Below are positions 18,246 through 36,648 of a stretch of DNA of 49,713 nucleotides, piece by piece. Positions within the stretch are counted from its first letter, which is position 1. Each line of letters begins with the position of its first letter. Below the pieces are notes generated by a model. That model worked only from the letters and a program-made list of their open reading frames with translations, did not search any database and was not told the DNA's origin. The stretch covers positions 1 to 49,713 of the forward strand of contig JAHEDW010000008.1 of the NCBI GenBank assembly GCA_024641025.1, given 5' to 3'. Source of the stretch: Gallionella sp. (GTDB taxonomy: Bacteria > Pseudomonadota > Gammaproteobacteria > Burkholderiales > Gallionellaceae). Position numbers and translations under genes: made by a program.

Positions 18246-18651
18246 TCACTTCTGGTCCTTGATTTCCGAGCATGATGGCGAATCCGTAAATAAATGGCAA
18301 TTTGTACATGCAGAAAATTACGTGAAACGAAGCGTCCGGGTTAGTCGAGTATCTTGTTCAAAAGCATAAGGTCGAACATGAACTGAGCATCTGGTCGGAT
18401 CCATGTGGCTCATATCAGACAAATACTGATATAAATATCTCTCTTTATCCTATGTAAAAAAGGGTGGATGACCGATTAAAAATTTGAACGGTATGGGAGT
18501 ACCCTAAGCCAAGTGCATCTAGAACTGTGCAATGTATCGTATCAGGCACTGAATTTTCTGGACATTGGAAATTAATGGTTTCTACAATAGCAAATCCGTC
18601 CAAAGTGCTTGTTCAGATCTCCAGTGCAATAGTAAAAAGATGGGGCAAATA
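18246..18651. other. Upstream region of the decaheme/porin operon
   Basis: This 406-bp non-coding region carries copy 4 of the shared dyad operator (18414-18432) and a degenerate second element near 18467-18480. The frame is open upstream of the cytochrome start back to 18565, but those codons lack a signal peptide and a ribosome binding site, so I treat them as untranslated leader. Confidence 0.5.
18414..18432 (+). promoter_or_regulatory. Shared dyad operator, copy 4 (decaheme/porin operon)
   Basis: ATCAGACAAATACTGATAT contains the arms ATCAG and CTGAT around ACAAATA, extended to ATATCAG/CTGATAT. It matches the dyads at 27842, 28167 and 32874 in spacer sequence and arm spacing. TACTGAT inside it fits the NarL heptamer consensus TACYNMT. 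At the position of the second element (about 53 bp on) only CCGATTAAA is recognisable. It lies 220 bp before the cytochrome start. Confidence 0.6.
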
Positions 18652-19572
18652 ATGAAAATCATGCAAAAACCACATCTCCTTAATTCAATCATCATTTCAT
18701 TTATATTATTGATCTTTTGCGAAATGGGTTTCGCTCAGGGAGAGGCGACTGTCCAAAAGGATACCAATCCCCCAAAAAATATCATTGCCAAAAAGCAGTT
18801 GCTTGATCTGACGTGCTTGGACTGTCATCAGAGCGTCAAGGGAATCAACACAAGAGCAGCAAACTATCATGGCGACTGCGAAACTTGCCATACTGGTGCG
18901 GAGGAACATCGAGATGAATTGCTCAAGGGGCAATCCGGGAATGGTTCAATTGCCTTTCCGCAGGTCAAGGAATGCATGAACTGTCACAAGGTTGATAAGA
19001 TTCTGGCGAATTGGGAATTCAGCGAGCACAGCAAGGGACAAGCGATATGTACTGAATGCCATACACTTCACGCTGCTCCCGTTCCAGGAAAATCTCATCT
19101 TGCGGGGAATAAGATCGACAACAAAAGTGCGAATTGTTCCAAGTGCCATCAGGATGTAGCTTCTCGCTTTAACATGAGCTCTCATCATCCGGTGAATGAG
19201 GGGGCCATGTCATGTGCCAGCTGCCATGACCCGCATGGCTCTCCTCGAATCACGCTGAAAGGCAAGAATGACCAATGTCTCGGTTGCCATCAGGCAATTC
19301 GAGGACCGATGGTATTTGAACACGCTCCCGTCGTGGAAGATTGCATGAGTTGCCACGATCCGCATGGAGCATCCAGTCGTCGCCTGTTGTCGGTATCGCA
19401 ACCGATGGTATGTCTTCAGTGCCACTCTATCGTCCAAGGCAAGCATGGGTATGGCTCTTCCGAGCCATCGGCGGTAGGTACCAGGACAATCTCAGGCGCG
19501 GTACTCAGGAATTGCACAAATTGTCATAGCGCAATACACGGTAGCCATCAGGATCCGGTGCTGCGCTATTGA
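18652..19572 (+). CDS. Decaheme c-type cytochrome, DmsE/MtrA family
   Basis: This 306-residue exported protein has ten CXXCH heme-binding motifs between about residues 54 and 291: CLDCH, CETCH, CMNCH, CTECH, CSKCH, CASCH, CLGCH, CMSCH, CLQCH and CTNCH. Several are followed by DPHG, typical of the MtrA/DmsE/PioA fold. A Sec signal peptide (HLLNSIIISFILLIFCEMGFAQ) precedes them. The ATG at 18652 is chosen because it has GGGG at the right distance and gives a normal signal. Length and heme number match periplasmic decaheme partners of outer-membrane porins, which carry electrons across the outer membrane. The porin gene begins 14 bp downstream, so the two form one operon. Confidence 0.93.
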   Translation: MKIMQKPHLLNSIIISFILLIFCEMGFAQGEATVQKDTNPPKNIIAKKQLLDLTCLDCHQSVKGINTRAANYHGDCETCHTGAEEHRDELLKGQSGNGSIAFPQVKECMNCHKVDKILANWEFSEHSKGQAICTECHTLHAAPVPGKSHLAGNKIDNKSANCSKCHQDVASRFNMSSHHPVNEGAMSCASCHDPHGSPRITLKGKNDQCLGCHQAIRGPMVFEHAPVVEDCMSCHDPHGASSRRLLSVSQPMVCLQCHSIVQGKHGYGSSEPSAVGTRTISGAVLRNCTNCHSAIHGSHQDPVLRY

Positions 19573-19586
19573 CAGGGAGGAATGCC

Positions 19587-22500
19587 ATGAGCGCGATCTC
19601 AAAAATAAATCTGCCCATTCTGATATGCATGGCGTTTGTACAGAATACCGCTAATGCCGAGCCACCTTCACCTCCTCCGGTCCAAAACCAGGAAGGTGCT
19701 ACATCCCGTGTAATCGAGTCTCCAACAACAACCTTGGCGCCGGCATTTTCGGCTTCCATCGTCCGCTCGTCTGATTCCCTAAAGACAAAGGTGCGCACAG
19801 AACCGACCTTTACCAAGATGACAGGTATCCCTTTTGGGAGTTATCTGTTGTTCCCCGAGCTGGCCCTATATCTGACGAACGACAATAATATATACGAGCA
19901 ACCAAGGAACACCAGCTCCGACTGGATAACGACGCTTTCACCAACACTGGTTGCCAAGTCTAACTGGAAGAAACACGCTTTGGATTTCAAGGCTGGTGCA
20001 AACATTGATCGTTACAAGCAATATACCAACGAAAACGTGGATGACTATTGGTTGGGTGCAGATGGTCATTATGATGTCACTCCTGGCACCAATTTCTTTG
20101 CTGGCTTGCTTAGCAGTCGCGACCACGAGGATCGTGGTTCGCCTAATGCGATTCCCGGAATTGAGCCAACTAAATACGACACCAACGAAGGTTACTTGGG
20201 TATAGATACGCAGATTGGCCGTGTGTCAGTACGTGCAGGTGTCACACATGTTCAACTTGATTTTCATAATCCTCCCGGTGTGGTTAGTCCGAATACCCAG
20301 GATGACCGTGACCACAAGATCGATTCGGTGGGTGCGCGAATCAGCTATTCAGTCACACCCACACTGAAGCCCTTCATCCAGGCGGCCAGTGATGAAAGGT
20401 GCTATAGCCAGACAGCAGATGATCTTGGCTACCTGCGTGATTCCAAAGGATACCGGTATGCTATCGGCGCAAGCTACAAGCCATCGGCAATACTTGAAGG
20501 CGAGGTATATATCGGGCGTATGTTCCAAGACTATGACGATAGTCGATTTAAAGACATGAACCGAAAATACTTCGGTGGCGAACTCCACTGGAAACCGCTG
20601 GTCGGCACATCGATAAGTGCCTTTCTCGACCGCTCGCTCGAGGAAACCACGCTGACCGGAGCCTCAGGCTATGTTGACACAATGGCGGGTGCCAGCATTG
20701 AGCGCTCATTGAGCCGGGATATGTTGGTTAATGGCGGAATCTATCAGGTACAAAGCAGCTACCAGGGAATCAAGCGTACAGACTATGTCACGAATGCTAC
20801 AGTAGGCGTCAAATATTATGTGTCCCCAGTGGTGTACCTGGGTGCTGACTATCGATTGTTAAATCGTATATCGAGTGTACAGGACGCCTACTACATGCGT
20901 AATCAGGTCATGGTCAGCTTGGGTTATACCCCGGGTCGCAAGCGTCCGGCACTAGAGGAGAGCATGAGTCCGTGGGAAAAAGCCATGGCTGCAGCGGATC
21001 ATAATGCCGAGCTACATGGCAACATCATACCCAAGCTTATCTATTTCGATTACGCGCAAGGGGTAGACCAGAGTAGCACCAACTTCCTGGAGCGCTATAA
21101 CTATCTGGACCAGAGCTTTGGCAATAATCGTCGCCATGGGGTGATCGCCGATGTCGATCTGAGCCTGGTTTACGCTTCGGATGAGCGCGACCTTATGGTA
21201 TTGGAGCGCGAAGGCTACGGAGAAAACAATCAGCGCACCAGATTGAGGATTAACAGTGAATCCGTCGGGTTCAATGCCTACAGTTCCATCTTCCAGTCTG
21301 CGACCGGCGGCATCGATTTTCGTTTTAACCCGAATGCCGTCGTGGGTGGAACCGACCAGAATTACAGTGCAGTTGCTGGCAACGTGGGAGAGTCACAACA
21401 TATCTCCCAGTTCAATTATGACAGTATTGACACGCTTTACACGGTGAATCGGTCTGAAACCGGTGCAAGCTTGATGTTCAAGCCGGTTGCATTTGACAAA
21501 CATGGTTCGGTCGAAGTCCGTTACGACAGCATCGTCCGCGCCGGCAATAAAATGACCAACTATGTGTTTCCCGCCGTGGCACTGTCGGGTGGTTCAGGAT
21601 CAACTGCACGGGAACTGGCACAGTGGCGAGGTTACAGTCAATTGATCGACGAGCAAAGCAAGCGTTTTACCTTCAACTTTGCGTTGACACCGAAAGAGTT
21701 GTTCAGGCTTAACTATGAATTTTCGATTGATGCTTTCCAGAATTTTACAGCCCCTGTCTCAATTGCTACAGTATCGCAGTGGTCTGGCATCCAGATCGGA
21801 TCGGGCGGGGGAGGGGTGCCATTCTTTAATACCTCTGAAGCGGCTGGGCAACCCAACGTCACCCTCAATTTTGTAGCAGATTCCACCCTGATCACCAACA
21901 GTTTGAACTTCAGTAAACAATTCTCGGATACTGCCGTGCTATCCGCTGGATTGAGCATGGCAAGACTAAAGCAAGACAGTTATACGAGCGTCCAACAAAT
22001 ATCAGGATATGACGATGGTAAAACAGGTACCGACAGTGGCTACCTTACAGGCAAGTTCAATCTGGCAGACATCACCAGTATCGAGGCTTTTGCGCGCTAC
22101 AGTAAAAGGAATAATGGATCATCCTATCCTGTCGCAGGATTTTATGACCCTGTCTCGGATACCAGCTACGAACGCATGGTGACGCCTCGCATCAACAGCA
22201 TCGAAACCAGAACCGTTGGTTTAGAAGTTCATCCATACCAAAAGATACTCAAGACTTCGCTGACTGCCGGCTTGGTTCACGAGGACAAGGATCGCAACCT
22301 GACTTATGGGATCGATCCCGTCCTGGTTCCAGAACTCATGTTGTATCGCGATCGTTCCAGCGCTGACGAGATATATCTCAAATTGATATCGCGCCCGGCG
22401 AAACACTGGATGATCAGGCTGACGCCGTCTTACATCGATTCGAACAAGACTGGCATGGTGACAGAACCGGAACATGCGGGACAAATCAAATCGCTCGTAA

Positions 22501-23168
22501 CCTACAGCAGGCCTGATTGGAAAGAATTGGTTGCCAGTGCCTACTACAATTACAAAAACAAGAAGAACAGTTTGCACGGCTATTCAAGCTATGACCAATA
22601 CGCCGGCTTCAGCGAGCCACAAACACAAAAAGTGAACAGTACGTCAAGATCCGCCGGACTCAACCTTAACCTGGTGCCACGTGAAGCGGTCAAGATCAAC
22701 CTGGGTTACGCCTGGAACCAGATGGATCTTGATGCTTACTACTTTACGACGAATCGTGTTCGCTTCCATTACCTTAATCCAACAAGTGCGACTTCTGCCC
22801 CTCCACCACCTGGTTATACGATCTGGCCGCTTGATTTCCTGGTGCTGGGTAATCCCGATTTCAAGGTGGATAACCATAGCGTGACTGCAGGAGCGGAGTG
22901 GGAAGGAGACAAGCTCATCCTGTCGGGAAACTATGTCCTTAACATGTCAGAGGGGCATAACGCAGATGGCTTGACTGTTCAGCTGCCAGAACCCGACGGT
23001 AGAGTCGATAACCAGTTGCACTCCTTGTCGATTGGACTCGAATACCCAACGCAACGTGACATATCGCTCCAGGCAGGCTATACCTTCGATTACTACAGGG
23101 ATTATGCCTACCCAGCGATGAGCGGAAAATTGCACACCATTATGATGGGGTTGAATTTCCGGATGTGA
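19587..23168 (+). CDS. Giant outer-membrane porin: BBP2-type barrel fused to MtrB/PioB-like barrel
   Basis: This is a 1193-residue protein with a signal peptide (cleavage likely after NANA) and start ATG 19587 behind GGGAGGA. Residues about 75-447 read like the BBP2_2/EpsL-type barrel of exopolysaccharide loci: FPELALYLTNDNNIYEQP, DERCYSQTADDLGYLRDSKGYR, YIGRMFQDYDDSRFKDM, VGVKYYVSPVVYLGADYRL and YYMRNQVMVSLGY. A charged linker (448-476, RKRPALEESMSPWEKAM) follows. Residues about 477-1193 resemble an MtrB/PioB decaheme-associated porin in length (about 717) and in long paired strands, ending KLHTIMMGLNFRM. Ordinary MtrB porins are about 700 residues, so the N-terminal barrel is extra. The upstream decaheme cytochrome should plug the MtrB-like pore. 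The fusion is inferred from motif recall. Confidence 0.75.
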   Translation: MSAISKINLPILICMAFVQNTANAEPPSPPPVQNQEGATSRVIESPTTTLAPAFSASIVRSSDSLKTKVRTEPTFTKMTGIPFGSYLLFPELALYLTNDNNIYEQPRNTSSDWITTLSPTLVAKSNWKKHALDFKAGANIDRYKQYTNENVDDYWLGADGHYDVTPGTNFFAGLLSSRDHEDRGSPNAIPGIEPTKYDTNEGYLGIDTQIGRVSVRAGVTHVQLDFHNPPGVVSPNTQDDRDHKIDSVGARISYSVTPTLKPFIQAASDERCYSQTADDLGYLRDSKGYRYAIGASYKPSAILEGEVYIGRMFQDYDDSRFKDMNRKYFGGELHWKPLVGTSISAFLDRSLEETTLTGASGYVDTMAGASIERSLSRDMLVNGGIYQVQSSYQGIKRTDYVTNATVGVKYYVSPVVYLGADYRLLNRISSVQDAYYMRNQVMVSLGYTPGRKRPALEESMSPWEKAMAAADHNAELHGNIIPKLIYFDYAQGVDQSSTNFLERYNYLDQSFGNNRRHGVIADVDLSLVYASDERDLMVLEREGYGENNQRTRLRINSESVGFNAYSSIFQSATGGIDFRFNPNAVVGGTDQNYSAVAGNVGESQHISQFNYDSIDTLYTVNRSETGASLMFKPVAFDKHGSVEVRYDSIVRAGNKMTNYVFPAVALSGGSGSTARELAQWRGYSQLIDEQSKRFTFNFALTPKELFRLNYEFSIDAFQNFTAPVSIATVSQWSGIQIGSGGGGVPFFNTSEAAGQPNVTLNFVADSTLITNSLNFSKQFSDTAVLSAGLSMARLKQDSYTSVQQISGYDDGKTGTDSGYLTGKFNLADITSIEAFARYSKRNNGSSYPVAGFYDPVSDTSYERMVTPRINSIETRTVGLEVHPYQKILKTSLTAGLVHEDKDRNLTYGIDPVLVPELMLYRDRSSADEIYLKLISRPAKHWMIRLTPSYIDSNKTGMVTEPEHAGQIKSLVTYSRPDWKELVASAYYNYKNKKNSLHGYSSYDQYAGFSEPQTQKVNSTSRSAGLNLNLVPREAVKINLGYAWNQMDLDAYYFTTNRVRFHYLNPTSATSAPPPPGYTIWPLDFLVLGNPDFKVDNHSVTAGAEWEGDKLILSGNYVLNMSEGHNADGLTVQLPEPDGRVDNQLHSLSIGLEYPTQRDISLQAGYTFDYYRDYAYPAMSGKLHTIMMGLNFRM

Positions 23169-23222
23169 ACTCCTCCCCACATCAGGGAAAGAAGCTTATC
23201 CTGTAACGATGTTGTGCAATTG

Positions 23223-23258
23223 AATGAACACGGGCTGCAATTGCAGCCCGTGTTCATT
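23223..23258. terminator. 36-bp perfect palindrome, bidirectional terminator
   Basis: The palindrome is perfect from 23223 to 23258, centred between 23240 and 23241 (AATGAACACGGGCTGCAA then its complement). It lies between the convergent porin and rhodanese genes, 54 bp from one stop and 23 bp from the other. As RNA it gives an 18-bp stem flanked by A/T-rich ends on both strands, suited to terminate both operons. The absence of an unpaired loop means a few central pairs must open. Confidence 0.75.
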
Positions 23259-23281
23259 TGCTCGAGAAAGTTAAATTCAGG

Positions 23282-24430
23282 TTATTTCTTTTCGACCATC
23301 GTATAGCTGCCATCCTTGTTAAATTTGGTATCGGCATTGATGAAGTAGGTTTTCATTTCTGGTTTGATCACCTTAACCATGTCGTAAGCCTCACCGGCGC
23401 GAGCCCCACCGCCGCAGAAAAACACGATGGGTTTGTCAGTTGGCAAAGTTGCGATGTTCTTTTCCAGTTGGTCAATAGGTATGCTCACCGCGCCCTTGAA
23501 AGTGCCAGCAGCAAACTCTGGGGCATCCCTAACGTCGACCAGCATCAGGCTATCTGGTGCTTCTTTCATGATTTTTTCAAAGGATGCCACGGTAATCGTG
23601 CCAGACTCCTTGCCTTGCTCGATGGTAGGTTGATTGCTCGTGGATGCGGCATCGTCACCGGCAGGTCCGGGGCCAAAGGCTTTCTCCCAGCCAGGATATC
23701 CCTCTGGGATCATCTTGACGTTGGTGTAACCCAATTTGACTGCTTTTTCCGCTGAATTTGCACTCAGCTTGCATTGCAAACCACCACAATAAAAATACAG
23801 TGGCATGGCTTTATCGGCGGGAAGCTTATCGATCATCTTGTCGAATTGGCTGTCCGGGATACTGATTGCACCGGGGATATGTCCCTTGTCATACATGCGT
23901 GCCTTGGGACGCGAGTCGACAATTACCATCAGTGCATTATCGTCAATCTGCTTCTTGATGAATGCCGGACTAACTGCAGCTATGTTACCTAGCTTGACCC
24001 ACTCAGGGAAACCTTCCGGATATACGTGGATATTGGTGTAACCCATCTTCTCTGCTTTGAATGCGCCTTTGTGACTCAACATGCATTCCAAGCCTTCGCA
24101 GTAAAAGATCAGGAGCGTTGCCTTATCCTGTGGCAAAAGTTCTGGCGCCAGTTTCTCAAAATACGTATCGGGTATGTTGACTGCGGTCGGAATATGTCCA
24201 GGATCGTATTTGCGTGCTGTTGGTCTGGAATCAATGATCTCTGTGCCATCAGGTTTGGGCAGCACGGCATATTTTTTGATGAACTCAATATCAACCAGCG
24301 TGTGGTACCAACCTTCTTTGCCTTGCACTTGTGGTGCGTCAGCTGCAAGCGTGTTTAAAGGTATCACAAGTGGGGTAGTGGCAAAGACAACTAACAACAA
24401 TGATGCCAAAACTGAGTGTTTGGCTTTCAT
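23282..24430 (-). CDS. Periplasmic triple-rhodanese-domain protein
   Basis: This is a 382-residue exported protein. AAGGAG lies 6 bp before the ATG at 24430, which opens a Sec signal (SVLASLLLVVFATTPLVIPL). Three rhodanese domains follow. Domain 1 has IDSRPTARKYDPGHIPTAV with FYCEGLECMLSHKGA, domain 2 has VDSRPKARMYDKGHIPGAI with FYCGGLQCKLSANSA, and domain 3 has VDVRDAPEFAAGTFKGAV with FFCGGGARAGEAYD. All three keep the catalytic Cys. Domains 1 and 2 have a second Cys six residues on and lack the usual Arg at that site, whereas domain 3 has the usual CxxxxR. The protein probably binds and passes sulfane sulfur in the periplasm for the YeeE transporter encoded 28 bp upstream in the same operon. 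Confidence 0.9.
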   Translation of the reverse strand: MKAKHSVLASLLLVVFATTPLVIPLNTLAADAPQVQGKEGWYHTLVDIEFIKKYAVLPKPDGTEIIDSRPTARKYDPGHIPTAVNIPDTYFEKLAPELLPQDKATLLIFYCEGLECMLSHKGAFKAEKMGYTNIHVYPEGFPEWVKLGNIAAVSPAFIKKQIDDNALMVIVDSRPKARMYDKGHIPGAISIPDSQFDKMIDKLPADKAMPLYFYCGGLQCKLSANSAEKAVKLGYTNVKMIPEGYPGWEKAFGPGPAGDDAASTSNQPTIEQGKESGTITVASFEKIMKEAPDSLMLVDVRDAPEFAAGTFKGAVSIPIDQLEKNIATLPTDKPIVFFCGGGARAGEAYDMVKVIKPEMKTYFINADTKFNKDGSYTMVEKK

Positions 24431-24458
24431 GATCATCTCCTTTGAGGATACTCGTTGT

Positions 24459-25700
24459 TTATAACAAGGTGAAGCGTTCGGTTGATTCGTTGTAGCGTAC
24501 CAGTGCATACCAGACCATCAAACCGGCACCGCTGATCAAGTATGTCCAACCCCAACTATCCAACATCACCGGAAGATATGCCTGATAGCCAATTCTGGTT
24601 TCCTCGATCAGGTCCAGGTTCATTTCAGATACTAGCCAGCCCGATTTTTTGAGCAGAGCATTTGTGATCGAACCAATCCAGGCAAAGAAAAAGATCGTTA
24701 CCCATAACTTGAGGTGACCCTCACCCATACGCCAGAGAGATCCAGAAGCACAGCCTCCGGCAAAGATCATGCCGATGCCAAATATCAGGCCACCTAGCAA
24801 TGAGCCTAGCCAGAAGGTTGGGGGGATTGCAATATATGGATCGATTACCTTGTGCTGAAACAAAAGGGAGGCGAGTGGAATACCCAGTGCCAATGCCAAG
24901 ATAACTGCCTTGGTCATATCCCCTTCAGCTGTCATGAAAGGCTCACGGAAGGCACGTGCAAAGCAGAATCGTGAGCGATGCATGATGAAACCGATGAAAA
25001 AGCCAGCCAAGATGATGATTGCCCGCACAGTTAGCTTTTCATTTTCAGATAAGTACCATAGGGTTGCCCAGGCAAGGATCAACACAAAAACGCCAAAGCC
25101 GATCCAGGGATAAAAGTGAATTAGCTTGTCTGATACTTTCAGGCTTGGTGGGGCTGTCATGCCCCAGTTGATGTGATCCAACGTCCACAACAATACTTTC
25201 AGGCCGATGATGGCGCCAAGTGTCAGCCCTAGCCACATTGCCCAGCCTGCTGGTGACGAATGTAATAGCGGGGTGAAGAAGCCACCGGTAGTACAACCGC
25301 CTGCTAGAGTCGCACCGATTCCCATCAGGCTGCCACCGAGTGAAGCCCATGCATATTCAAGTTTCGGAGGTCGGTTGATGTGGAACTGACGTGATAGCAG
25401 GGCAGCACAAAAGGCACCTATCACCAAGGAGATGTTCATCAATGACATGCGGTGCAGTAAAGGCCCATCAAGCCTGTCATGCACCCCTAGCAACGGCCCC
25501 AGCCCAATCAGGTTGTTGAACCAGTCACCCCACAATTTGAGTCCGCCGAACACACCCCAGAACAGGCCGTCGCTCATCAGGCCTAATATCACCAGTACGA
25601 TGAGGATGGCACCGAGATTAGGCGACCATGCTTCGACAAATAGCCTTTGGTAATCAGCCCTGAAACCGGAAAAAACGGATGTATCGTTGCCAGCACTCAT
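24459..25700 (-). CDS. YeeE/YedE-family (TsuA-like) sulfur-compound transporter
   Basis: This is a 413-residue integral membrane protein with about ten helices. It has the paired family motifs GATLAGGCTTGGFF (first half) and GMIFAGGCASGSLWRMGEG (second half), with RSRFCFARAFREPF between them. Conserved cysteines in these loops carry persulfide-linked substrate in the TsuA thiosulfate transporter, so thiosulfate or sulfane-sulfur uptake is the likely role. The substrate cannot be fixed from sequence. AAGGA precedes the start. It is the third gene of the octaheme cytochrome operon, 28 bp before the triple rhodanese. Confidence 0.92.
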   Translation of the reverse strand: MSAGNDTSVFSGFRADYQRLFVEAWSPNLGAILIVLVILGLMSDGLFWGVFGGLKLWGDWFNNLIGLGPLLGVHDRLDGPLLHRMSLMNISLVIGAFCAALLSRQFHINRPPKLEYAWASLGGSLMGIGATLAGGCTTGGFFTPLLHSSPAGWAMWLGLTLGAIIGLKVLLWTLDHINWGMTAPPSLKVSDKLIHFYPWIGFGVFVLILAWATLWYLSENEKLTVRAIIILAGFFIGFIMHRSRFCFARAFREPFMTAEGDMTKAVILALALGIPLASLLFQHKVIDPYIAIPPTFWLGSLLGGLIFGIGMIFAGGCASGSLWRMGEGHLKLWVTIFFFAWIGSITNALLKKSGWLVSEMNLDLIEETRIGYQAYLPVMLDSWGWTYLISGAGLMVWYALVRYNESTERFTLL

Positions 25701-25759
25701 CGCCAGTATCCTTAATTGCTATCAAGCACTTCAGCGCAGATCGATTGCTAACGCAACTG

Positions 25760-26152
25760 TTAACTGCAACTTGCTGGGGAATCACCATCCTTTGCACCTT
25801 TGGTCATAAAGGCACGAATGTCATCTAGCAGATCCTGGTCTGGAACGTCCGCGAATTTTTCAGCTGCCTTGTTGGTCGCCCTGATGCTGGCGCGATAGGG
25901 CTTGCTGACGTAATACTTGACGGAGTTAATACCTTTGGCATGTTTATCTGCCTCTAGGTAGGCATTCCATTCGGCCTTGCTCCTGGTGTTTGGTGAGATT
26001 GCGCCTCCAGCTTTATCGACATGGCACGCTGTACAGACCATGCGGAAATAGACTCGTCCACGTTTCCAGTCACCCTCTTCAGATTGAGCTGACAACGGAA
26101 GTATGATCAGGCACAACACCATTCCAAAGTACAGATTCAGTTGGATTCGCAT
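25760..26152 (-). CDS. Small monoheme c-type cytochrome
   Basis: This is a 130-residue exported protein. AAGGAG precedes the ATG at 26152, giving a Sec signal (LNLYFGMVLCLIILPLSAQ). One CTACH heme motif lies at about residue 40, in RGRVYFRMVCTACHVDKAGGAISP. Pro, Asp and Lys/Arg-rich helices follow, ending in DIRAFMTKGAKDGDS. A methionine in FMTKG could be the distal ligand, but this is uncertain. It is likely an electron shuttle between the quinol or electron source and the octaheme cytochrome whose gene ends 19 bp upstream. Confidence 0.88.
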   Translation of the reverse strand: MRIQLNLYFGMVLCLIILPLSAQSEEGDWKRGRVYFRMVCTACHVDKAGGAISPNTRSKAEWNAYLEADKHAKGINSVKYYVSKPYRASIRATNKAAEKFADVPDQDLLDDIRAFMTKGAKDGDSPASCS

Positions 26153-26171
26153 GATGAGCTCCTTGAGCTGT

Positions 26172-27710
26172 TTAATTTCGATGCTTGCCATGATCAGGAA
26201 CAAGTTGGAGACCTTGAAGGCCTTTCATTCTTCCAATGCCACCCTTCGTGTGGCATTCCTTGCAGGCCAGTGAATCTTCCTTGGGAGCAACCATGTGATT
26301 GATCGGCCAAGTCATCTCAGTGCGGACGAAATCCACCTTGCCCGAGAAAGGCGCACCAACAGTTGCCATGCCAGCTGAAATCGCTTTTTCCCAATTGAAG
26401 TTTTTCCAATAGGAAGCGTCATCGACACCAGTCGTGTGGGGAATGACCAATGTCTTGTTGACAGGGTCGTAAGGCTGAACGCCACGAAATACCTTTACGG
26501 GCCAAATTACAGACTTGCCGTCGTTCGGACTGCCTTCGAATCGGTTGATCGGTGTAATTCCCGAAGTTTTGTCCACCTTGTCGCCAAGTAGGGTGTATTT
26601 GACCTGGCCATTGAACCAGACATATTCAGGGGCGACGTTTTCGCCCAGCGTGAAATTCCCTTTTTTGGAGTCATAGATAACGCGGCCTTTGGCATCCATC
26701 GTCTGCATCGGATTGCCGTCCTGACCCATTTTGCCTGCCGTTGACCAGTCCCATGTCATCTTGGTGGCCACGCCACCGCGTGCCATGGCAGGTATATGAC
26801 AGACCTGACAGGAAAGCTTCCCGCCATGCTTATTCAATACTGCGACTTCAGTTGCATGGGGTTCATTCCCGTGACAAGCTTGGCAGGTTCCCGGGTTGGT
26901 ATTGTCCCAAGAACCCGGATTGTAATTATCTACCTTGCCGGGCACGTGGCTGTCATCCTTGTCGATTGCAGTCGGTGAATATCGACTGCCAGGAACCTCG
27001 TGACCGGTAGTCATATGGCATTTGGCGCAAGTGAAATCGGCACCCGTTGCATCCATGTGCACATCAAGGTGCCGACCTGGCGCAGCCAGCGAACTGTCCA
27101 TATCCCCGTGTTTTACTCCATCGCCACCGCCGCCATAGAAATGACAAGTACCACAAGTATCACGGCTTGTTTTACCGACTTTTTGCGCTATCCTTCGCAA
27201 GTCGACCGGCTTGACGAAATGACCTGAGCCTGGAGGAATCTCCATCGTCTTGTAGGCCGGATGACCAGCAAGACCTGATGGTTTGATATATTCGCCTGTG
27301 GTGTCATGGCATACCAGGCAATCCACATTTTCCTGTGACGAGAAATCGAAATTCTCGTCTTTCCAGCCATATCCTACGTGGCAGGAAGTGCAGGCAGCAT
27401 AATTGGAAGCGGCGGCAACACAAAAGTTGTTAATTACATATCGCTTGCCGAGTCGCTGTCCGCTCGACGGATTGAGATATTCCCATGTCCAATGCTTGGT
27501 TCGCTGAATTTGCCTGGCCGCATCCTTGTGACAACCTAAACATGCCTTGGTCACTTCGGGCCCCGTCTTGAAAGCTACCTTCAACTCCTTCATGGTGTTG
27601 TGATCCGAATTCTTATCAGCTGTTGCAGGTTCGGCAATAGCATCAAATCCGGAAATACTTGCAACCATCAATAGAAGAGTGAAGTGTTGATAAACAGCTT
27701 TGATCTTCAT
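26172..27710 (-). CDS. Octaheme c-type cytochrome, tetrathionate reductase (OTR) family
   Basis: This is a 512-residue exported protein with eight CXXCH motifs between about 56 and 487: CLGCH, CTSCH, CLVCH, CGTCH, CAKCH, CQACH, CQVCH and CKECH. CTSCHVGYGWKDENFDFS is the OTR-type region, where the Lys of the active-site heme is expected and which sits between hemes 2 and 3. QRTKHWTWEYLNPSSGQ and PINHMVAPKEDSL are other family-like stretches. The start at ATG 27710 gives a Sec signal (FTLLLMVASISGFDAIA). OTR-type enzymes reduce tetrathionate, nitrite or hydroxylamine in vitro, and oxidation of sulfur compounds has also been proposed in lithotrophs. The downstream sulfur genes favour a sulfur role. 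Direction is not decidable here. Confidence 0.92.
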   Translation of the reverse strand: MKIKAVYQHFTLLLMVASISGFDAIAEPATADKNSDHNTMKELKVAFKTGPEVTKACLGCHKDAARQIQRTKHWTWEYLNPSSGQRLGKRYVINNFCVAAASNYAACTSCHVGYGWKDENFDFSSQENVDCLVCHDTTGEYIKPSGLAGHPAYKTMEIPPGSGHFVKPVDLRRIAQKVGKTSRDTCGTCHFYGGGGDGVKHGDMDSSLAAPGRHLDVHMDATGADFTCAKCHMTTGHEVPGSRYSPTAIDKDDSHVPGKVDNYNPGSWDNTNPGTCQACHGNEPHATEVAVLNKHGGKLSCQVCHIPAMARGGVATKMTWDWSTAGKMGQDGNPMQTMDAKGRVIYDSKKGNFTLGENVAPEYVWFNGQVKYTLLGDKVDKTSGITPINRFEGSPNDGKSVIWPVKVFRGVQPYDPVNKTLVIPHTTGVDDASYWKNFNWEKAISAGMATVGAPFSGKVDFVRTEMTWPINHMVAPKEDSLACKECHTKGGIGRMKGLQGLQLVPDHGKHRN

Positions 27711-27841
27711 GGTGATGCCTTTAAGAGTGATAATTCTTGGCAACGACAGATTCCCATCGATTGCATTGAATATTGGCCTTAAGCATCGAGATTGAATATC
27801 GGCGCTTTGCTTAATTATTGCTCAGACGACCTCTGAAAATT

Positions 27842-27860
27842 TCATCGGTGTTTGTCCTAT
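27842..27860 (-). promoter_or_regulatory. Shared dyad operator, copy 1 (octaheme operon)
   Basis: On the minus strand it reads ATAGGACAAACACCGATGA, with arms ATAGG/CCGAT around ACAAACA. The second element AAGCGCCGATATT begins 53 bp downstream, at 27807 on the minus strand, and lies about 97 bp before the octaheme gene start. If the CCGATATT stretch contains the -10 hexamer, the dyad would be centred near -64, a typical class I activator position. Confidence 0.65.
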
Positions 27861-28166
27861 TAAATAGTCGAAGTGTATTGCGGAAGATGCACTGGAATTA
27901 ACTGGTCAATTTTCCTTAGTGAGAGCGTGGTGAGCTGAAGCGTTTATTCAGTATGGATTTTGGCCATTCGATAGTAAGGACATCACAGTCAAATGCAACA
28001 TTAGGTTTGGCTGTTAAAAATCAGCTTTGTTACCCTAGATTCCTGTTACTGACAGCCAACATTGAGTTCGATTTCAAATATTTCTGACAAACCAATATGG
28101 TTTGAAGATCAATGCTTGCATCAATCTATTGTTCAGCTGTTGCCAAGCGCGCATAAGCCTATAGAA

Positions 28167-28185
28167 ATAGGACAAACACTGATGC
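28167..28185 (+). promoter_or_regulatory. Shared dyad operator, copy 2 (Gly-rich protein)
   Basis: ATAGGACAAACACTGATGC has arms ATAGG and CTGAT around ACAAACA. TTGCGCTGATGTT starts 53 bp downstream at 28220. The start codon of the Gly-rich protein is 244 bp from that second element, implying a long leader. It matches copy 3 at 17 of 19 positions by eye. Confidence 0.65.
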
Positions 28186-28463
28186 GTTAAAGCAAAGTCG
28201 TCTTATTGAATATTCAGCGTTGCGCTGATGTTTGTACATTGTTGTACCACTTATCATTCAACCAACATGTTCATTGGATAAAGAATGGCGGTCAGAAGTC
28301 GTTTGCAATTTTATCGTTGGAAGTATTGATGCTTGATGTTGATTGTTCTGAGTGTTCAATATGACTTGCATAGAAGGTGAACTTCAAATATTTAGAATGC
28401 GCCAATATACAAAAAATTCGTTTGAATCAGTAAATCACTAACCAACTATAAGGAGTATTTAAA

Positions 28464-29573
28464 ATGACTAAGCATACCTCTATCAAAATAGCGCTTGCTG
28501 CAGGTGGTATCTTGAGTATCGCCATGTTGGCTGCTCCTATGGCCAGTCATGATCTTGTGGTAGGAAATTTTGATCTGATCTCGAGTGCTCAGGCTGCTGA
28601 GGATGGCAGTAGCGGCAAAAAGATGTCCGGCAAAGCACAGGGCGGATCAACAGGAGATCATGGTACAACCCATGGTAGCGGCAAAGGCAATAAGGACATC
28701 ATGATGAAAGGTCAAGGTGGCCCGGGAACCGATAGTGACAGCGATCGTCCGATCTGGGCTGGCGTAAAAGGTGGTAAAGCCGGCGCGGGCGGTAAGCCTG
28801 CTGGCGGCGGCACGAAGAAGGGCGACTTGTATGGCGACCTTTGGGTAGTACTTCGTGACACCAATGGTGTTCCAGTTCTGACACCTGAAGGATTCGTGCA
28901 ACCTGTGGATGCTGACGGCAATGTTATTCCACTGGATGCAGAGGGAGCGCCGCTTGATCCTACGCTGACCCAGGAAGTCGAGTTCAGCCGCTTGAGCGTT
29001 TCCCGTGCACCTTCCAAGGTTCTGACACACTCTTTGGATGAGGCACTTGCAAAGATAACAGCTGGGACGAGTATCACGCTTGATCCGGCAGGACGCATAA
29101 TGGTCGATGGTGCAACCATAGACTCACCCTTGGAAAATCTTGCGATCTACAAGGCGATCATGACCAACACCTTGCCTGCTACAGTTGCATCGAAGCTTCC
29201 TTCCGATCTATCTGCAGCCTCTTTGCTGGCAGCGGCTGCGGACAAAACTAGTACGCTGAGCGTGGATGTGGTGGTATACCTGAATTCGTTCCTGGGCATC
29301 AATGCAGTAACGGACGGGAAAGTAACTTCATACTATTCATTCACTACAGACTATGATCGCGAGTCCACCTATAAAGATGCTTATGCTGACGTTCTTGTAA
29401 AGCAGGACGACGGGTCATATATACCAGCAACTGTGAATATCTATGATGCGGTTTTCAGCGGCTCAACTTGGGTGGATCCAACACCAGGAAGTGCCGGTGC
29501 GGATGACTTTGCAGCAGCAGCAAATGATGCCCTTCGCGTTATTCAATTCGTGCATGACAATGCCGTTCGATAA
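28464..29573 (+). CDS. Secreted Gly/Lys-rich protein of unknown function
   Basis: This is a 369-residue protein with no recognised family. AAGGAG precedes the ATG. The N-terminus is a long Sec signal (IKIALAAGGILSIAMLAAPM), with likely cleavage after the AQAA near residue 46. Residues 47-125 are low complexity, rich in Gly, Lys, Asp and Ser. The segment KGDLYGDLWVVLRDTNGVPVL and repeated short D-G-N-V-like turns then lead to an ordered C-terminal half (DEALAKITAGTSITLDPAGRI; SYYSFTTDYDRESTYKDAY). No heme or metal motif is seen. A shared dyad operator precedes it and the octaheme operon diverges from it, so it is probably an extracytoplasmic partner of the electron-transfer system. A clear terminator follows. 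Confidence 0.65.
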   Translation: MTKHTSIKIALAAGGILSIAMLAAPMASHDLVVGNFDLISSAQAAEDGSSGKKMSGKAQGGSTGDHGTTHGSGKGNKDIMMKGQGGPGTDSDSDRPIWAGVKGGKAGAGGKPAGGGTKKGDLYGDLWVVLRDTNGVPVLTPEGFVQPVDADGNVIPLDAEGAPLDPTLTQEVEFSRLSVSRAPSKVLTHSLDEALAKITAGTSITLDPAGRIMVDGATIDSPLENLAIYKAIMTNTLPATVASKLPSDLSAASLLAAAADKTSTLSVDVVVYLNSFLGINAVTDGKVTSYYSFTTDYDRESTYKDAYADVLVKQDDGSYIPATVNIYDAVFSGSTWVDPTPGSAGADDFAAAANDALRVIQFVHDNAVR

Positions 29574-29588
29574 TCCGGAGTCATCAAC

Positions 29589-29619
29589 AGGGCGTATCTG
29601 AATAAGGTGCGCCCTTTTT
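29589..29619 (+). terminator. Intrinsic terminator after Gly-rich protein gene
   Basis: AGGGCG and CGCCCT form a 6-bp GC-rich stem with a 15-base loop, followed directly by TTTTT. It lies 16 bp after the stop. Confidence 0.75.
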
Positions 29620-29976
29620 CCATGTTGACAGCGATTCAATAAGATAATTTAGATCGTTAATGGAAATTGAGCGCTATTGAGTTCGCATCTGGTTTTTAAG
29701 ACGTATCTTGAAGATGTTCAACAGATAACTGGTGTATGATTACATTAGTAAATATCCTTAGTAATTTATTTGCGGTCATTATTCCTCATGTGCACGGATT
29801 TCCTTCTTGGCATTAACGTGTTTTCATTTTCATCGCCAAAGGAATCTGTTCAGGATCTGTTGGAATAGAGTTGGGCTGAACTTCAAACCTCAACCTCCAA
29901 ATACAGAATGAATTGATCTGATATCTAGAGTCAATATGGGGATATTCTTGTAAACCTGAGGTCAGAAAGGCAAGGT
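29620..29976. other. Intergenic region before the sensor kinase
   Basis: These 357 bp hold no supported gene. A minus-strand frame at 29813-30031 overlaps the kinase start and has no ribosome binding site, so I ignore it. I found no copy of the shared dyad here. AGAAAGG at 29964-29970 is the ribosome binding site of the kinase. Confidence 0.45.
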
Positions 29977-31953
29977 ATGCCTCGCGAATCGAGTTTGCCA
30001 CTGAAAGCACAGAAAGTGCAAAATGCTTCATCGAAGCTGGCCAAGACAGCGGTCGTCAAAGAACAACTTCATGAACTTAACGAGACAAAGACAGGTGCTG
30101 TGGTGCAGAAAGAGTCTTTGCGGCATAAGCAAATCAAGCTGAAAAGCGCCCACGATAGTTATGTGGATCTCTACCGAAAGATCTTCGAACAGGCCGCTGA
30201 CGGTATTGTGATAGCAGACCACCAGACTGGCGAGATCATTGAGGTAAACCAGGCATTGGCAGATATGCTTGGTTATGATAAATCGTCACTCGTCGGGAAA
30301 TCTATAGGAATCCTTTGCCCTCCTGAAGTATGTGGCCCGTCTTGTGAAATCAAACCTTCTGACAAACGTGGTTTGGAGATCGATACTCATTTGCGATCAG
30401 CACACGGGAAAATACACTGGGTTGTGATTAAAATGTCCATTCTGACCATAAACGGAAAGGATGTGGATTTCGGCATTGTCAGGGATATTACTGAGCGTCA
30501 TCTTGCACAGTCTAGGGAAAGTCGCTTGCGTGAAATCCTTGATAAAACGCATGACATGATCTTCATCTTCTCACCTGAAACGCTGAACTTTGTGTACATG
30601 AATAAAGGTGGTGTTAAGGCGATCGGCTATAGTCCAGAGGAGATGCTCCATATGACGCCAGCAGATATCATACCGTTGGTATCAGAGGCAGAGAGTCGCG
30701 CGTTCATCGCACCTTTGGCAAAAGGAAGAAAAACCAAGTTGCGTTTTGAAACCACACTCAAGCGCAAGGATGGAACAACCTTTCCTGCCGAGGTGCAATT
30801 GCAACTTGAAAAAGAGAACGGCGATGCTGGGTTGTTCGTCGCTATCGTGAGGGATATCGCTAGGCGCAATTATGCAGAGAAAGAATTGCGCAAGCAGAAA
30901 AACCTGATGTGGCAGGTTATCGACATGGATCCTAACCTGATCTTTGTCAGGGACTTGAACGGTCGGTTTTTGTTGGCAAATCAGTCAATAGCAAACTTTT
31001 ATGCCATGATGGTCAAGGATCTCATCGGTAAATCAGGCAATGAGTTAAAGAGTGATCAACTGAACTTGCCAGCATTTCTAGTCTCGGACAAAGAGGTATT
31101 TGAACAAGGTAAGGAAACCTCCACGACGGAAGCGGTGGTAATGCCGGATGGCAAGAAACACTGGTTTCTGATAATCAAGCGGCCGATGCAACAGCCAGAT
31201 GGGTCAATCAACACGCTCTGTATCGCGGCTGACATTTCTGAATTGAAATTGTCAGGGATTAAGCTGGATGAATCATATAGGGAGTTACAACGGTTAGCGC
31301 TTCACCTGGAAAATGTCAGGGCGGAAGAGCGGACAAAGATCGCACGCAATCTTCATGACGAGATGGGGGCGACACTGGCAGCACTGAAAATGAGGACCGC
31401 ATGGCTCTCATCCAAACTGCCAGACGGGTTGCCAAATTTATCCGAAGAATTGGTAAATATATCTGATCTGGTAACTGACGGTATCAGGACCGTACGTCAA
31501 GTCGTTTCCGATCTGCGGCCAAATCTGCTCAATGATGTCGGACTGATCGCGGCTGTTAGAAATTATGTCAACAGATTCCAGCGCGATACAGAAATAAAAT
31601 GTGCTTTGGGCTTGCCTGCGACGGACTTTGTGCTCAATGAGAACCAGTCAGTGACTATCTTCCGGATCATCCAGGAATCCCTGAGTAATGTAGCTCGACA
31701 TGCCAAGGCGAGTAATGTTGATATCTTGTTTTCAATAGATGGAGATTTCTTGATGGTAGAAATCGAGGACAATGGTATCGGATTCGACTCGTCTCGAAAG
31801 GAGAGGTCTTTTGGACTGATCGGAATCAAGGAACGCGCACGGATGATTGGAGGTGCTGCGACGATAGAAAGTGCTCCAGATAAGGGAGCACGCGTTTCGC
31901 TGAGCATTCCCTTTGCGAATTTAGACAGTCAAGCTGATATTGACGAATCCTGA
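29977..31953 (+). CDS. Three-PAS sensor histidine kinase, NarL-type (HisKA_3)
   Basis: This is a 658-residue cytosolic kinase without transmembrane helices. A basic coiled-coil N-terminus precedes PAS1 at about 65-175 (IFEQAADGIVIADHQTGEI), PAS2 at 180-300 (LDKTHDMIFIFSPETLNF) and PAS3 at 305-425 (VIDMDPNLIFVRDLNGRF). HisKA_3 follows: RTKIARNLHDEMGATLAALK, with the phosphorylated His at residue 460. HATPase_c has NVARHAKASNVDI, EDNGIGFD and FGLIGIKERA motifs. The PAS1 region contains CPPEVCGPSCE, a Cys cluster that might bind an iron-sulfur cluster or sense redox, though this is a guess. The partner response regulator follows 42 bp downstream. Its likely targets are the shared dyad promoters nearby. 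Confidence 0.93.
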   Translation: MPRESSLPLKAQKVQNASSKLAKTAVVKEQLHELNETKTGAVVQKESLRHKQIKLKSAHDSYVDLYRKIFEQAADGIVIADHQTGEIIEVNQALADMLGYDKSSLVGKSIGILCPPEVCGPSCEIKPSDKRGLEIDTHLRSAHGKIHWVVIKMSILTINGKDVDFGIVRDITERHLAQSRESRLREILDKTHDMIFIFSPETLNFVYMNKGGVKAIGYSPEEMLHMTPADIIPLVSEAESRAFIAPLAKGRKTKLRFETTLKRKDGTTFPAEVQLQLEKENGDAGLFVAIVRDIARRNYAEKELRKQKNLMWQVIDMDPNLIFVRDLNGRFLLANQSIANFYAMMVKDLIGKSGNELKSDQLNLPAFLVSDKEVFEQGKETSTTEAVVMPDGKKHWFLIIKRPMQQPDGSINTLCIAADISELKLSGIKLDESYRELQRLALHLENVRAEERTKIARNLHDEMGATLAALKMRTAWLSSKLPDGLPNLSEELVNISDLVTDGIRTVRQVVSDLRPNLLNDVGLIAAVRNYVNRFQRDTEIKCALGLPATDFVLNENQSVTIFRIIQESLSNVARHAKASNVDILFSIDGDFLMVEIEDNGIGFDSSRKERSFGLIGIKERARMIGGAATIESAPDKGARVSLSIPFANLDSQADIDES

Positions 31954-31995
31954 TCAGTACAATACCTTGTCACTTATTTAATAACGGGAGGCAAC

Positions 31996-32628
31996 ATGAT
32001 CCGGGTGTTTATTGTTGACGACCATGCTGTTGTTCGCCAAGGCCTTAGAAGGATATTGGAGGAAGCCGGCGATATCGAGGTCGTGGGCGAGGCAAAAGAC
32101 GGAGCCGAGGCCCTGCATTTGAACCACACCTTGGATTGGGATGTCATGCTGCTCGATATTTCAATGCCAGAGATTTGTGGCGGAGATACGCTGAAGCAAA
32201 TCATTGCTCATGATAAGGAAGCCAAGGTTCTGATCTTGAGCATGTACGAGGAAGATCAATATGCTGTGCGCCTGATGAAGGCGGGCGCTTCAGGCTATCT
32301 GACCAAGGATGTTGCCCCGGAGCAGTTGATTGGCGCAATCCGTAATGTGTATCAAGGAAAGAAGCATATCAATACCGTACTTTCTGAATTGTTGCTACAG
32401 GAAATTGGAAACGATTCAAGCAGACCATTACATGCTGCGCTGAGCGATAGGGAATTCCAGGTCCTGAAGTTGATCGGTTCTGGAAAAAAGGTGTCCGACA
32501 TTGCAAATATTCTGTCACTGAGCGTCAAAACTGTCAGTACTTACCGGGCGCATATACTCGCCAAGATGAAATTCAAGAACAATTCCGAACTGACCTATTA
32601 CGTTGTTCAGAACGACCTTTTAAATTAA
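31996..32628 (+). CDS. NarL/FixJ-family response regulator
   Basis: This is a 210-residue protein. The receiver domain (1-120) has IVDDHAVVRQGL with acidic Asp8/Asp9, phospho-acceptor Asp54 in DVMLLDISMP, and the YLTKDV lysine. The C-terminal LuxR-type HTH (about 145-207) reads LSDREFQVLKLIGSGKKVSDIANILSLSVKTVSTYRAHILAKM, with the recognition helix in VKTVSTYRAHI. GGGAGG precedes the start. It pairs with the upstream kinase. NarL-type regulators bind dyad-symmetric sites, and the four dyads in this window are candidate targets. Confidence 0.95.
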   Translation: MIRVFIVDDHAVVRQGLRRILEEAGDIEVVGEAKDGAEALHLNHTLDWDVMLLDISMPEICGGDTLKQIIAHDKEAKVLILSMYEEDQYAVRLMKAGASGYLTKDVAPEQLIGAIRNVYQGKKHINTVLSELLLQEIGNDSSRPLHAALSDREFQVLKLIGSGKKVSDIANILSLSVKTVSTYRAHILAKMKFKNNSELTYYVVQNDLLN

Positions 32629-32785
32629 ACGACCGAGTAGAACAATGACGCTTTTCCTGTGCGACTTATTCGTCCAGCACTAACAAGCAACTTCTGCGCC
32701 ACCCATAAACCTACTCCAGCGTTGCGTTCTATCGAAGGCTGAGAAGCTACTTTCACGTAAGGGATACTTTCATCCCTGCTATTTG

Positions 32786-32798
32786 ATCACACTGTGAT
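32786..32798. promoter_or_regulatory. CRP/FNR-like palindrome
   Basis: ATCACACTGTGAT is a perfect 13-bp inverted repeat with a single central base. The arms match TGTGA/TCACA half-sites but the spacing is shorter than the usual CRP site, so the binding protein is uncertain. Confidence 0.35.
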
Positions 32799-32873
32799 TC
32801 GTCGGTTATTTATCCATAATTAGTTCATGGTTATACGGGTTTTCCGATTCGATGTTTGTTGTAATTACATCGA

Positions 32874-32892
32874 ATAGGACAAATACCTATGC
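32874..32892 (+). promoter_or_regulatory. Shared dyad operator, copy 3 (cold-shock/Hsp20 block)
   Basis: ATAGGACAAATACCTATGC has perfectly complementary arms ATAGG and CCTAT around ACAAATA. TTGCGCTGATATC starts 53 bp downstream at 32927, 111 bp before the cold-shock start. TACCTAT fits the NarL heptamer consensus TACYNMT. Confidence 0.65.
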
Positions 32893-33037
32893 GTGATTAA
32901 TCCCATGTCTGAGTGCAAATTAAGTATTGCGCTGATATCTAAATCTGCTATTCGTTGAGAGAATGCAAAAGAAGAATATGGGTCAAGAAAAGACGCATGT
33001 CATGGGCAGTTCCTATATTTCACAACGGAGAAATCGC

Positions 33038-33241
33038 ATGCCAATCGGAACTGTTAAGTGGTTTAGCGATGCTAAGGGGTTTGGTTTCATTACCCCTGAG
33101 GATGGTAGCCAAGACTTGTTCGTACACTTTTCAGCGATCAACATGGAAGGTTTTAGGACGCTCAAGGAGGGCCAGAAGGTCACCTATGAAATTGAGCAGG
33201 GGCCCAAGGGCAAGCAGGCTTCCAATATTCAGTTCATTTGA
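33038..33241 (+). CDS. Cold-shock protein (CspA family)
   Basis: This is a 67-residue OB-fold RNA chaperone. [20 protein letters not shown] contains RNP1 (KGFGFI) and LFVHFSAI is RNP2. [21 protein letters not shown] ends the fold. I chose ATG 33038 because the family starts at MPxGTVKWF and CGGAG lies 7 bp upstream. The 25 additional upstream codons are probably leader. It binds single-stranded RNA and prevents secondary structures during stress. It is the first gene of a group with Hsp20, and copy 3 of the shared dyad operator lies upstream. Confidence 0.95.
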
Positions 33242-33277
33242 ACATCCCATGTTACAACAAAATAAAGGAGAAGTATC

Positions 33278-33727
33278 ATGACTAACATTACAAGGTATGA
33301 CCCATTCAACCGACTGGCACGATTTGACCGGCTTTGGGATATGGACGAAGTATTAGAGAAACTCATGATGCGACCGATCGTCAGGGAAGGTATGGATATC
33401 GAACCGCAGATCAAGATGGACGTGAAAGAGTCGAATGGAGACTACAAAATCAAGGCAGAGATACCTGGGGTGAAGAAAGAGGACATCCATGTAAGCATCG
33501 AGGGTAACCGTGTTTCGATCAGTGCCGAGGTTAAGCAGGAGAAAGAGGAAAAGGAAGGCGAAAAAGTGATTCGTTGTGAGCGCAGCTATGGCATGGCATC
33601 ACGCATTTTCACTCTGGCCGATGAGGTTGACCAAGGCAAAGTTCAAGCAAAATATGTTGATGGCTTGCTCGAACTCACTTTGCCAAAGAAATCCGGGTCA
33701 TCTCGCAAAGAAATCCCCGTATCTTAG
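33278..33727 (+). CDS. Small heat-shock protein Hsp20
   Basis: This 149-residue protein is an alpha-crystallin-type ATP-independent holdase. The N-terminal arm (RYDPFNRLARFDRLWDMDEV) precedes the alpha-crystallin domain at about 45-138: KMDVKESNGDYKIKAEIPGV, VSIEGNRVSISAEV, GMASRIFTLADEVDQGKVQA and DGLLELTLPKK. The last residues EIPVS form an IxV-like oligomerisation tail. AAAGGAG precedes the start. It follows the cold-shock gene by 36 bp, so they are probably co-transcribed. It keeps denatured proteins soluble for the GroEL encoded nearby. Confidence 0.95.
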   Translation: MTNITRYDPFNRLARFDRLWDMDEVLEKLMMRPIVREGMDIEPQIKMDVKESNGDYKIKAEIPGVKKEDIHVSIEGNRVSISAEVKQEKEEKEGEKVIRCERSYGMASRIFTLADEVDQGKVQAKYVDGLLELTLPKKSGSSRKEIPVS

Positions 33728-33801
33728 GGTTAACAGTAGAAATGAACGCTTGGTAGCAACTAATTTTTACTAAATACAATCACCACTACTAGGAGCAAAA
33801 A

Positions 33802-34212
33802 ATGAAAAGTAAAATAATTACAATGGCAACATTGGCCGGTGCCTTGGTGTTCACATCTGGCCTTGCTTTGGCGGCTGACCAGGATCAGGATCGAACAAGA
33901 CTGCAAGACCAAACCCAGGACAAGGACAAGTTGCAAGATCGGGACCGGTTGCAGGATAGGGACCAGGATAAGGTCTACGGAAGCCAGTTGATGACTGAGC
34001 AAGAGCGCAAAGAATATCAAAACAGGATGCGAAGCGCCAAGTCGGCGCAGGAACAGGAACAAATCCGTGCCGAACACCATAAGCGCATGCAAGTCCGCGC
34101 CAAGGAACGCGGGGTATCCATTCCGGACGATCCCCCGGCTAAAGGTGGAGGCATGATGTCACCCGGTGGTGGCATGGGTCCTGGTGGTGGCGGAGGCGGC
34201 GGTCGCCGCTGA
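33802..34212 (+). CDS. Exported DQDR-repeat protein with Gly-rich tail
   Basis: This is a 136-residue exported protein of unknown function. AGGAG precedes the start and the Sec signal ends after LALAA. Residues 27-58 are a degenerate repeat of DQDR/LQDQ/LQDR units, about eight short copies, that should form a charged helix. Next comes MTEQERKEYQNRMRSAKSAQEQEQIRAEHHKRMQVRAKERG, a second charged helix similar to periplasmic stress proteins. The Gly/Met-rich tail is a low-complexity run. It stands between Hsp20 and GroEL, which suggests an envelope-stress role, but no direct evidence exists in the sequence. Confidence 0.7.
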   Translation: MKSKIITMATLAGALVFTSGLALAADQDQDRTRLQDQTQDKDKLQDRDRLQDRDQDKVYGSQLMTEQERKEYQNRMRSAKSAQEQEQIRAEHHKRMQVRAKERGVSIPDDPPAKGGGMMSPGGGMGPGGGGGGGRR

Positions 34213-34219
34213 CCAACCA

Positions 34220-34376: not shown

Positions 34377-36041
<1,665 letters not shown>

Positions 36042-36614: not shown

Positions 36615-36648
36615 ATTGACTTCTTGAAGCGGCCAATCAAGCCTACGT

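Follow-up and report, generated by a model that had tools for sequence, protein, structure and literature searches.

Response regulators of the NarL/FixJ family bind operators made of seven-base half-sites in inverted pairs by means of a GerE-type helix-turn-helix, an example of such a half-site being the NarL heptamer TACYYMT. DevR/DosR counts Hsp20-type proteins among its targets. According to the accessible part of one source, DevR/DosR promoters combine a strong site with an adjacent weak one, the start-proximal site overlapping the -35 region, and binding is cooperative (PMC3029386). The GacA box appears as TGTAAGN6CTTACA in the available text of another (PMC8523701). Here we describe a composite regulatory array that occurs four times in a 49,713-nt stretch of Gallionella sp. 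DNA (the window; C95 among the 132 contigs of a 2.5-Mb genome), which also encodes a PAS-type histidine kinase and a NarL-family response regulator. We consider it likely that this two-component system acts through the sites as composite activator operators, with the array as such, a class II promoter and a regulon of 11 promoters as parts of that reading.

The array consists of a strong distal dyad, an inverted half-site, a degenerate direct repeat of the dyad, offset by 46 bp, and a -10-like hexamer, in this order. Its half-site, ATARGAC/GTCYTAT with an asymmetric core, differs from the NarL heptamer. Judged by the accessible description of DevR/DosR, the array resembles that system in its putative NarL-family regulator, and its sequence geometry would fit a stronger upstream site plus one overlapping the -35 region, but it differs in operator sequence and in having a half-site flanked by two direct dyads whose spacing is 46 bp (PMC3029386). 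Hsp20-type genes are among the putative targets here, too. In their arms (TGTMRG..CYKACA), the dyads of relatives resemble the GacA box, yet a seven-base core, ACAAACA, stands where the available text on GacA gives six free bases, and the present array differs further in its two dyads and half-site at fixed spacing and in its protein-coding targets (PMC8523701). The array can be said to resemble DevR in logic and GacA in arm sequence, a resemblance that does not amount to membership in either system. No description of this operator was found in the open-access literature searched, and the papers listed by exact-string searches of operator words are unrelated by title. ACAAA is absent from the text, motif figure aside, of a Desulfovibrio DAP-chip paper (PMC3333781), and the available part of a 2025 paper on regulated iron oxidation in Sideroxydans names no regulator for the multihaem cytochrome genes (PMC12442390).

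Anatomy and genomic occurrence of the array

All four 17-bp dyads that a preliminary description of the window had pointed out were found again at their positions and strands (Table 1), and their reading as a dimer-type dyad operator is supported. The degenerate pattern given there, which was derived from the same four window sites on which it was counted, has four exact matches in the window compared with 0.00 expected from 100 dinucleotide shuffles; when up to three mismatches are tolerated, the count is still four, against 1.60 expected. A second element, GCGCYGATRTY, does recur at one fixed offset in three of the sites, albeit 55 bp from the dyad start and not 53 bp as first measured, and the fourth (decahaem/porin) site is indeed degenerate at this place, with CCGAT in register with the other three. 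The inverted half-site, seven further sites in the genome and the -10-like hexamer were absent from that description.

Across the whole genome, the dyad alone has 14 matches with at most two mismatches (seven exact, one with a single mismatch, six with two), compared with nine matches for the reversed dyad pattern. Ten of the 14 carry additional common sequence at fixed spacing, which the other four do not. A sequence-only model built from those ten sites (R1), which recovers its source sites by construction, adds one site on contig C25 (expectation value, E = 1.1e-5), bringing the total to 11. A wider model (R2), built from 42 sites that include some named loci later scanned as whole genomes, likewise gives 11 sites in this genome. 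Each of the 11 arrays lies 5′ of an open reading frame (ORF) on the same strand; of the four in the window, the decahaem/porin site scores weakest by R1 (E = 3.7e-11). In a leave-one-out analysis confined to columns 25 to 78, that is, outside the dyad, only 2 to 7 of the 99,270 positions in the window were not outscored by each of the ten sites, those few including the window's own true sites, and the four other two-mismatch dyad matches scored -39 to -56, which is background.

The array is constant to the base over 78 ungapped columns in the ten aligned sites, the spacing of its elements being fixed and the intervening sequence variable. Its distal dyad, laid out as 6+7+6 (19 bp) around the core ACAAACA, reads ATARGACAAACACYGAT in this genome (columns 7 to 23) and TGTCAGRCAAACACYGACA elsewhere in the genus. 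The inverted half-site YCYTAY follows at columns 41 to 46, as TCYTAT or TCTGAG in the sites of the window genome, and the third element approximates TTCAGnAATnCnCCGATATT. In other genus members, the dyad often recurs in full at this place as a direct repeat, ATCAGACAAACACCGAT, at columns 53 to 69, and the stretch corresponding to the second element, CCGATAGC, lies inside it, which is why we take GCGCYGATRTY to represent the right arm of a second dyad that is degenerate here.

Predicted promoter geometry and proposed mode of action

When 42 sites of the window genome and of other genomes were aligned, with one-base gaps in a few rows, about 22 poorly conserved columns were seen between the second dyad and a sigma70-like hexamer at columns 92 to 97, in which A93 is found in 39, A96 in 35 and T97 in 39 of the 42 sites. 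The hexamer is the best TATAAT-like place beyond the array in each of three site groups, and in this genome A93 and T97 are both kept in 10 of 11 sites, the exception being the decahaem site. At the place expected for a -35 element, no consensus is conserved in the 42 aligned sites. With T97 set to -7, the centres of the proximal dyad, the half-site and the distal dyad come to lie near -43, -60 and -89, respectively, and GATRTY occupies about -37 to -32. In class II activator promoters, the activator site is centred near -42 and a -35 consensus is lacking. From its sequence, we favour reading the array as one of this class, for activation of a sigma70 promoter, a fit that depends on columns 92 to 97 being the -10 element and on a predicted start, since only then does the proximal dyad lie near -43.

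In the preliminary description, GATRTY had been assigned to the -10 box instead, which would centre a single dyad near -64, as in class I activation. GAT at columns 67 to 69 is well kept (G67 in 33, A68 in 40 and T69 in 41 of the 42 sites), and several observations weigh against our choice of hexamer: GATATT at column 67 is itself TATAAT-like in the 16 window-type sites (on average 3.56 matches of 6, versus 3.75 at column 92), column 49 inside the array beats column 92 in TATAAT likeness in the second site group and ties with it in the third, and the -10 match of the decahaem site is poor. However, in relatives the GATRTY stretch sits in a full second dyad, and a separate hexamer is conserved some 22 bp further downstream. 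The second element is thus probably not the -10 box, the predicted transcription start lies about 32 bp past it and not 6 to 10 bp, and the -64 position gives way to dyads near -43 and -89; a class I arrangement appears unlikely. Repression, too, seems unlikely to us. Here, the regulator or another protein at -43 would block RNA polymerase, as the overlap of the proximal dyad with the -35 region would allow, but an upstream dyad and a half-site suit an activator array, and the promoters look activator-dependent because no -35 consensus is conserved.

For the class II activator array, the following course can be proposed. The PAS-type kinase would phosphorylate the NarL-family regulator, a dimer of which would bind the strong distal dyad, centred near -89, touch the inverted half-site near -60 and cooperatively occupy the degenerate proximal dyad near -43, covering the place of the absent -35 element. 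Sigma70 holoenzyme would initiate from the -10 hexamer about 22 bp past the proximal dyad, and the eleven promoters would constitute a regulon in which genes for exported and electron-transfer proteins are combined with cold-shock and chaperone genes. In this scheme, phosphorylation, binding, activation as opposed to repression, and cooperativity are what we infer.

The regulator and its association with the operator

The response regulator belongs to the NarL/FixJ type by its domains (PF00072, 2.5e-29; PF00196, 1.8e-16). Its best NCBIfam match is the UvrY/SirA/GacA model NF007018, at 186.3 bits against a curated cut-off of 280; with the operator box departing from that of GacA as well, membership in GacA/UvrY was set aside. 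The regulator likewise stays below the equivalog cut-offs of MctR (161.5/300 bits), NarL (141.5/250), FixJ (85.1/255) and EvgA (98.4/251). Regulators of the GacA/UvrY family act on CsrA-binding small RNAs; the window and seven site loci contain no match to any Rfam family at gathering score. The PAS regions of the kinase have weak matches to solved structures. A Cys-rich stretch, CPPEVCGPSC, is present in the first of them; a rough text search did not find it in three kinase frames of neighbouring genomes.

Throughout the genus, site presence follows the recognition helix of the regulator. Of 74 genus regulator genes (E≤1e-40), 20 are followed on the same strand by a site no more than 1500 bp away, mostly at a distance of 30 to 250 bp, as counted on 103 R2 rows with E≤0.0014, ten or so weaker rows being left out. 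In a tree of 66 of the 74 regulators, all 20 belong to the 28 with the helix STYR, compared with 0/38 for other helices (SVYR, 0/22; STHK, 0/16). By alignment with NarL, the T/V difference between helices falls on what we take to be a base-contacting position of NarL. The operator arms covary with the helix as well: at column 7 of the distal dyad, the ratio of A to G is 11:0 in YRxH genomes (G000, G028) and 4:29 in YRxR genomes, and columns 9 and 23 follow the same pattern (based on sites with scores of 40 or more in genomes assigned to a single helix type; G006 and G008 contain both types and were omitted). The distant H-type loci L149 and L192 agree with this, and L187 has only a weak, mixed site. 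Among the 36 other genus genomes searched, only G006, G028 and G008 have relatives of the window regulator with 68-73% identity, and all three carry window-type sites. Because the sites track the STYR helix and the arm bases covary with a helix residue, the sequence comparison supports the preliminary suggestion of this regulator as the likely binder; we regard the regulon as real and consider it very probable that the regulator encoded in the window binds its composite operator.

Other results fit this assignment less well. Eight of the 28 STYR regulators have no adjacent site, including close orthologues in G028 and G008. Adjacency is not the property of one clade, the site label taking six changes on the regulator tree (66 of the 74 regulators; none of the eight omitted has an adjacent site), and the window's clade groups with SVYR and not with the other STYR regulators (98/92). 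The Fisher, adjacency and covariation tests are, moreover, uncorrected for kinship. One might therefore suppose that another regulator, coded elsewhere, binds the sites and that adjacency reflects control of the NarL-type gene or its neighbours, and some sites do lie far from any NarL-type gene. We think this very unlikely, given that both site presence and arm bases follow the helix and that the only other regulator of this genome at E≤1e-40, on contig C127, is of the SVYR kind. A mobile or structured-RNA repeat, which would account for repetition at intergenic places, was set aside as hardly credible: spacing is fixed while the intervening sequence varies, the sites are directed towards genes, and the window and seven site loci gave no Rfam match at gathering score.

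Putative targets and distribution of the module

As the preliminary description had envisaged, the putative target set joins multihaem cytochromes with cold-shock and chaperone genes (Table 1). A signal or lipoprotein sequence, as judged by eye, starts 8 of the 11 first ORFs, with ORFs and start codons assigned mechanically. Putative targets outside the window comprise a lactonase-like propeller protein, a DUF883 protein, an fn3-like protein, a DUF748/AsmA protein, a cytochrome c together with a flavocytochrome c sulfide dehydrogenase, and two proteins without a family match. Within it, the Csp/Hsp20/GroEL block is followed by CBS, S30AE, PEBP, LonB-like, PCMT and GreA/B-type genes; positions 33038-47476 form a dense stress cluster that also contains spermidine-synthase-like and DUF1614 genes. 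A gene for a PAS-GGDEF protein (16749-18245) lies directly upstream of the decahaem site, and a GGDEF-EAL protein comes after a site in locus L161.

Table 1. Array sites, regulatory genes and putative target genes in the window
Feature	Coordinates	Strand	Elements or remarks
Decahaem/porin site	distal dyad 18414..18430	+	half-site 18448-18453; degenerate proximal dyad 18460-18476; -10 place 18499-18504, poor -10 match
DmsE/GSU2203-like multihaem cytochrome	18640..19572	+	putative target; just below curated cut-offs; start codon uncertain
BBP2-type porin after the multihaem cytochrome	19569-23168	+	putative target
Octahaem tetrathionate-reductase-family cytochrome and three next ORFs	23282..27743	-	putative target
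Octahaem operon site	distal dyad 27844..27860; rest of array 27770..27826	-	half-site 27826-27821; proximal dyad 27814-27798; -10-like hexamer 27775-27770
Gly-rich protein site	distal dyad 28167..28183; rest of array 28201..28257	+	half-site 28201-28206; proximal dyad 28213-28229; -10-like hexamer TATCAT 28252-28257
Gly-rich exported protein	28464..29573	+	putative target; no family match
Histidine kinase	29977..31953	+	putative partner kinase; three PAS-type matches, HisKA_3, HATPase_c
NarL-family response regulator	31996..32628	+	putative binder; REC and GerE; helix KTVSTYRAHILAKM
Cold-shock/Hsp20 site	distal dyad 32874..32890; rest of array 32908..32964	+	half-site 32908-32913; proximal dyad 32920-32936; -10-like hexamer 32959-32964
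Cold-shock protein, Hsp20, 136-aa protein (no match), GroEL-family chaperonin	33038..36041	+	putative target

The genus can be called Gallionella on the strength of one link, a named Gallionella record (L191) being identical to genus genome G026 over 2,966 bp. An R2 site (E≤0.01) is present in 23/37 genus genomes. Two of these genomes, G007 and G017, carry 24 and 25 R2 sites and several STYR regulators each, their targets including rubrerythrin, MsrB/MsrA, PF20603 hydrolase, receiver-like and Hsp20 genes. Under strict filters, 3 of 396 other genomes in a sample of the phylum have a site at E≤0.001. R1, which derives from this genome alone, was also applied to 80 named loci around related regulators. 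These loci were chosen by search words ([VG]KT[IV]STY-like or QYAVRL) and hence all contain one; R1 gave 21 matches in them at E≤1 and 19 at E≤0.05, and 14 of the latter are located on the strand of the regulator gene and no more than about 1 kb downstream of it. The records are labelled Neomarinimicrobiota, Elusimicrobia, Spirochaetes, WOR-3, Ignavibacteria, Aminicenantes, Thermodesulfovibrionia, Deltaproteobacteria and others, with the proviso that most are metagenome assemblies whose taxon labels may err; a word search also found the array in the isolate Desulfosarcina widdelii. A word matrix gave 19 sites in the 48.6 kb behind the regulator and 25 in 2.47 Mb elsewhere, its seed words coming partly from the same loci, a dependence of which the R1 run on the 80 loci is free. 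In a motif-free k-mer count over 73 loci, TCCTACA was the first 7-mer (13 loci versus 1.6 expected), and TAGGACA, ACAAACA and GACAAACAC were also among the top words; the top 8-mer, AATGAGAA, is unrelated to the motif and speaks against the link. Whole genomes of 12 chosen site loci contain 1 to 6 sites each. In a Sulfuricellaceae record (L132:10818-10836), the dyad between regulator and receiver gene is inverted.

A standalone receiver is the ORF after the site for 6 of 10 proteins checked by Pfam, and a cluster of eight such receivers, judged by sequence, exists in the genus. In a census, a standalone receiver lies within 900 bp downstream in 10/18 site loci versus 11/62 others, five of the ten receiver-bearing site loci having supplied the seeds. 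Small standalone receiver-like proteins come after the operator in L149, L166, L171, L175, L195, L136 and L160, which represent several phyla. For the receiver protein of the genus, a search of the window genome gave no close homologue, the best resemblance being 29-33% inside longer frames. In the portion of the work available, CtrA induces the standalone receiver Osp, which exerts negative feedback on CckA-CtrA (PMC9430884). The order of regulator, site and receiver in other phyla resembles this regulator-induced receiver as described there (PMC9430884), but the regulator family is a different one, and the window genome is without a close receiver homologue. Receiver feedback may have been the ancestral use of the operator. 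Tentatively, we envisage a cross-phylum module in which a STYR NarL-type regulator has a composite promoter behind its own gene, often driving a kinase-feedback receiver; in Gallionella, this promoter might have spread over the genome to form a regulon that connects electron transfer and proteostasis, the operator being rewritten along with one helix residue (R to H).

For a Gallionella genome, the analysis provides a predicted regulon, a promoter map and a regulator, multihaem cytochrome genes included, as well as a testable connection between a recognition-helix residue and the operator arms. If the receiver feedback loop is true, a simple circuit would be present in several phyla.

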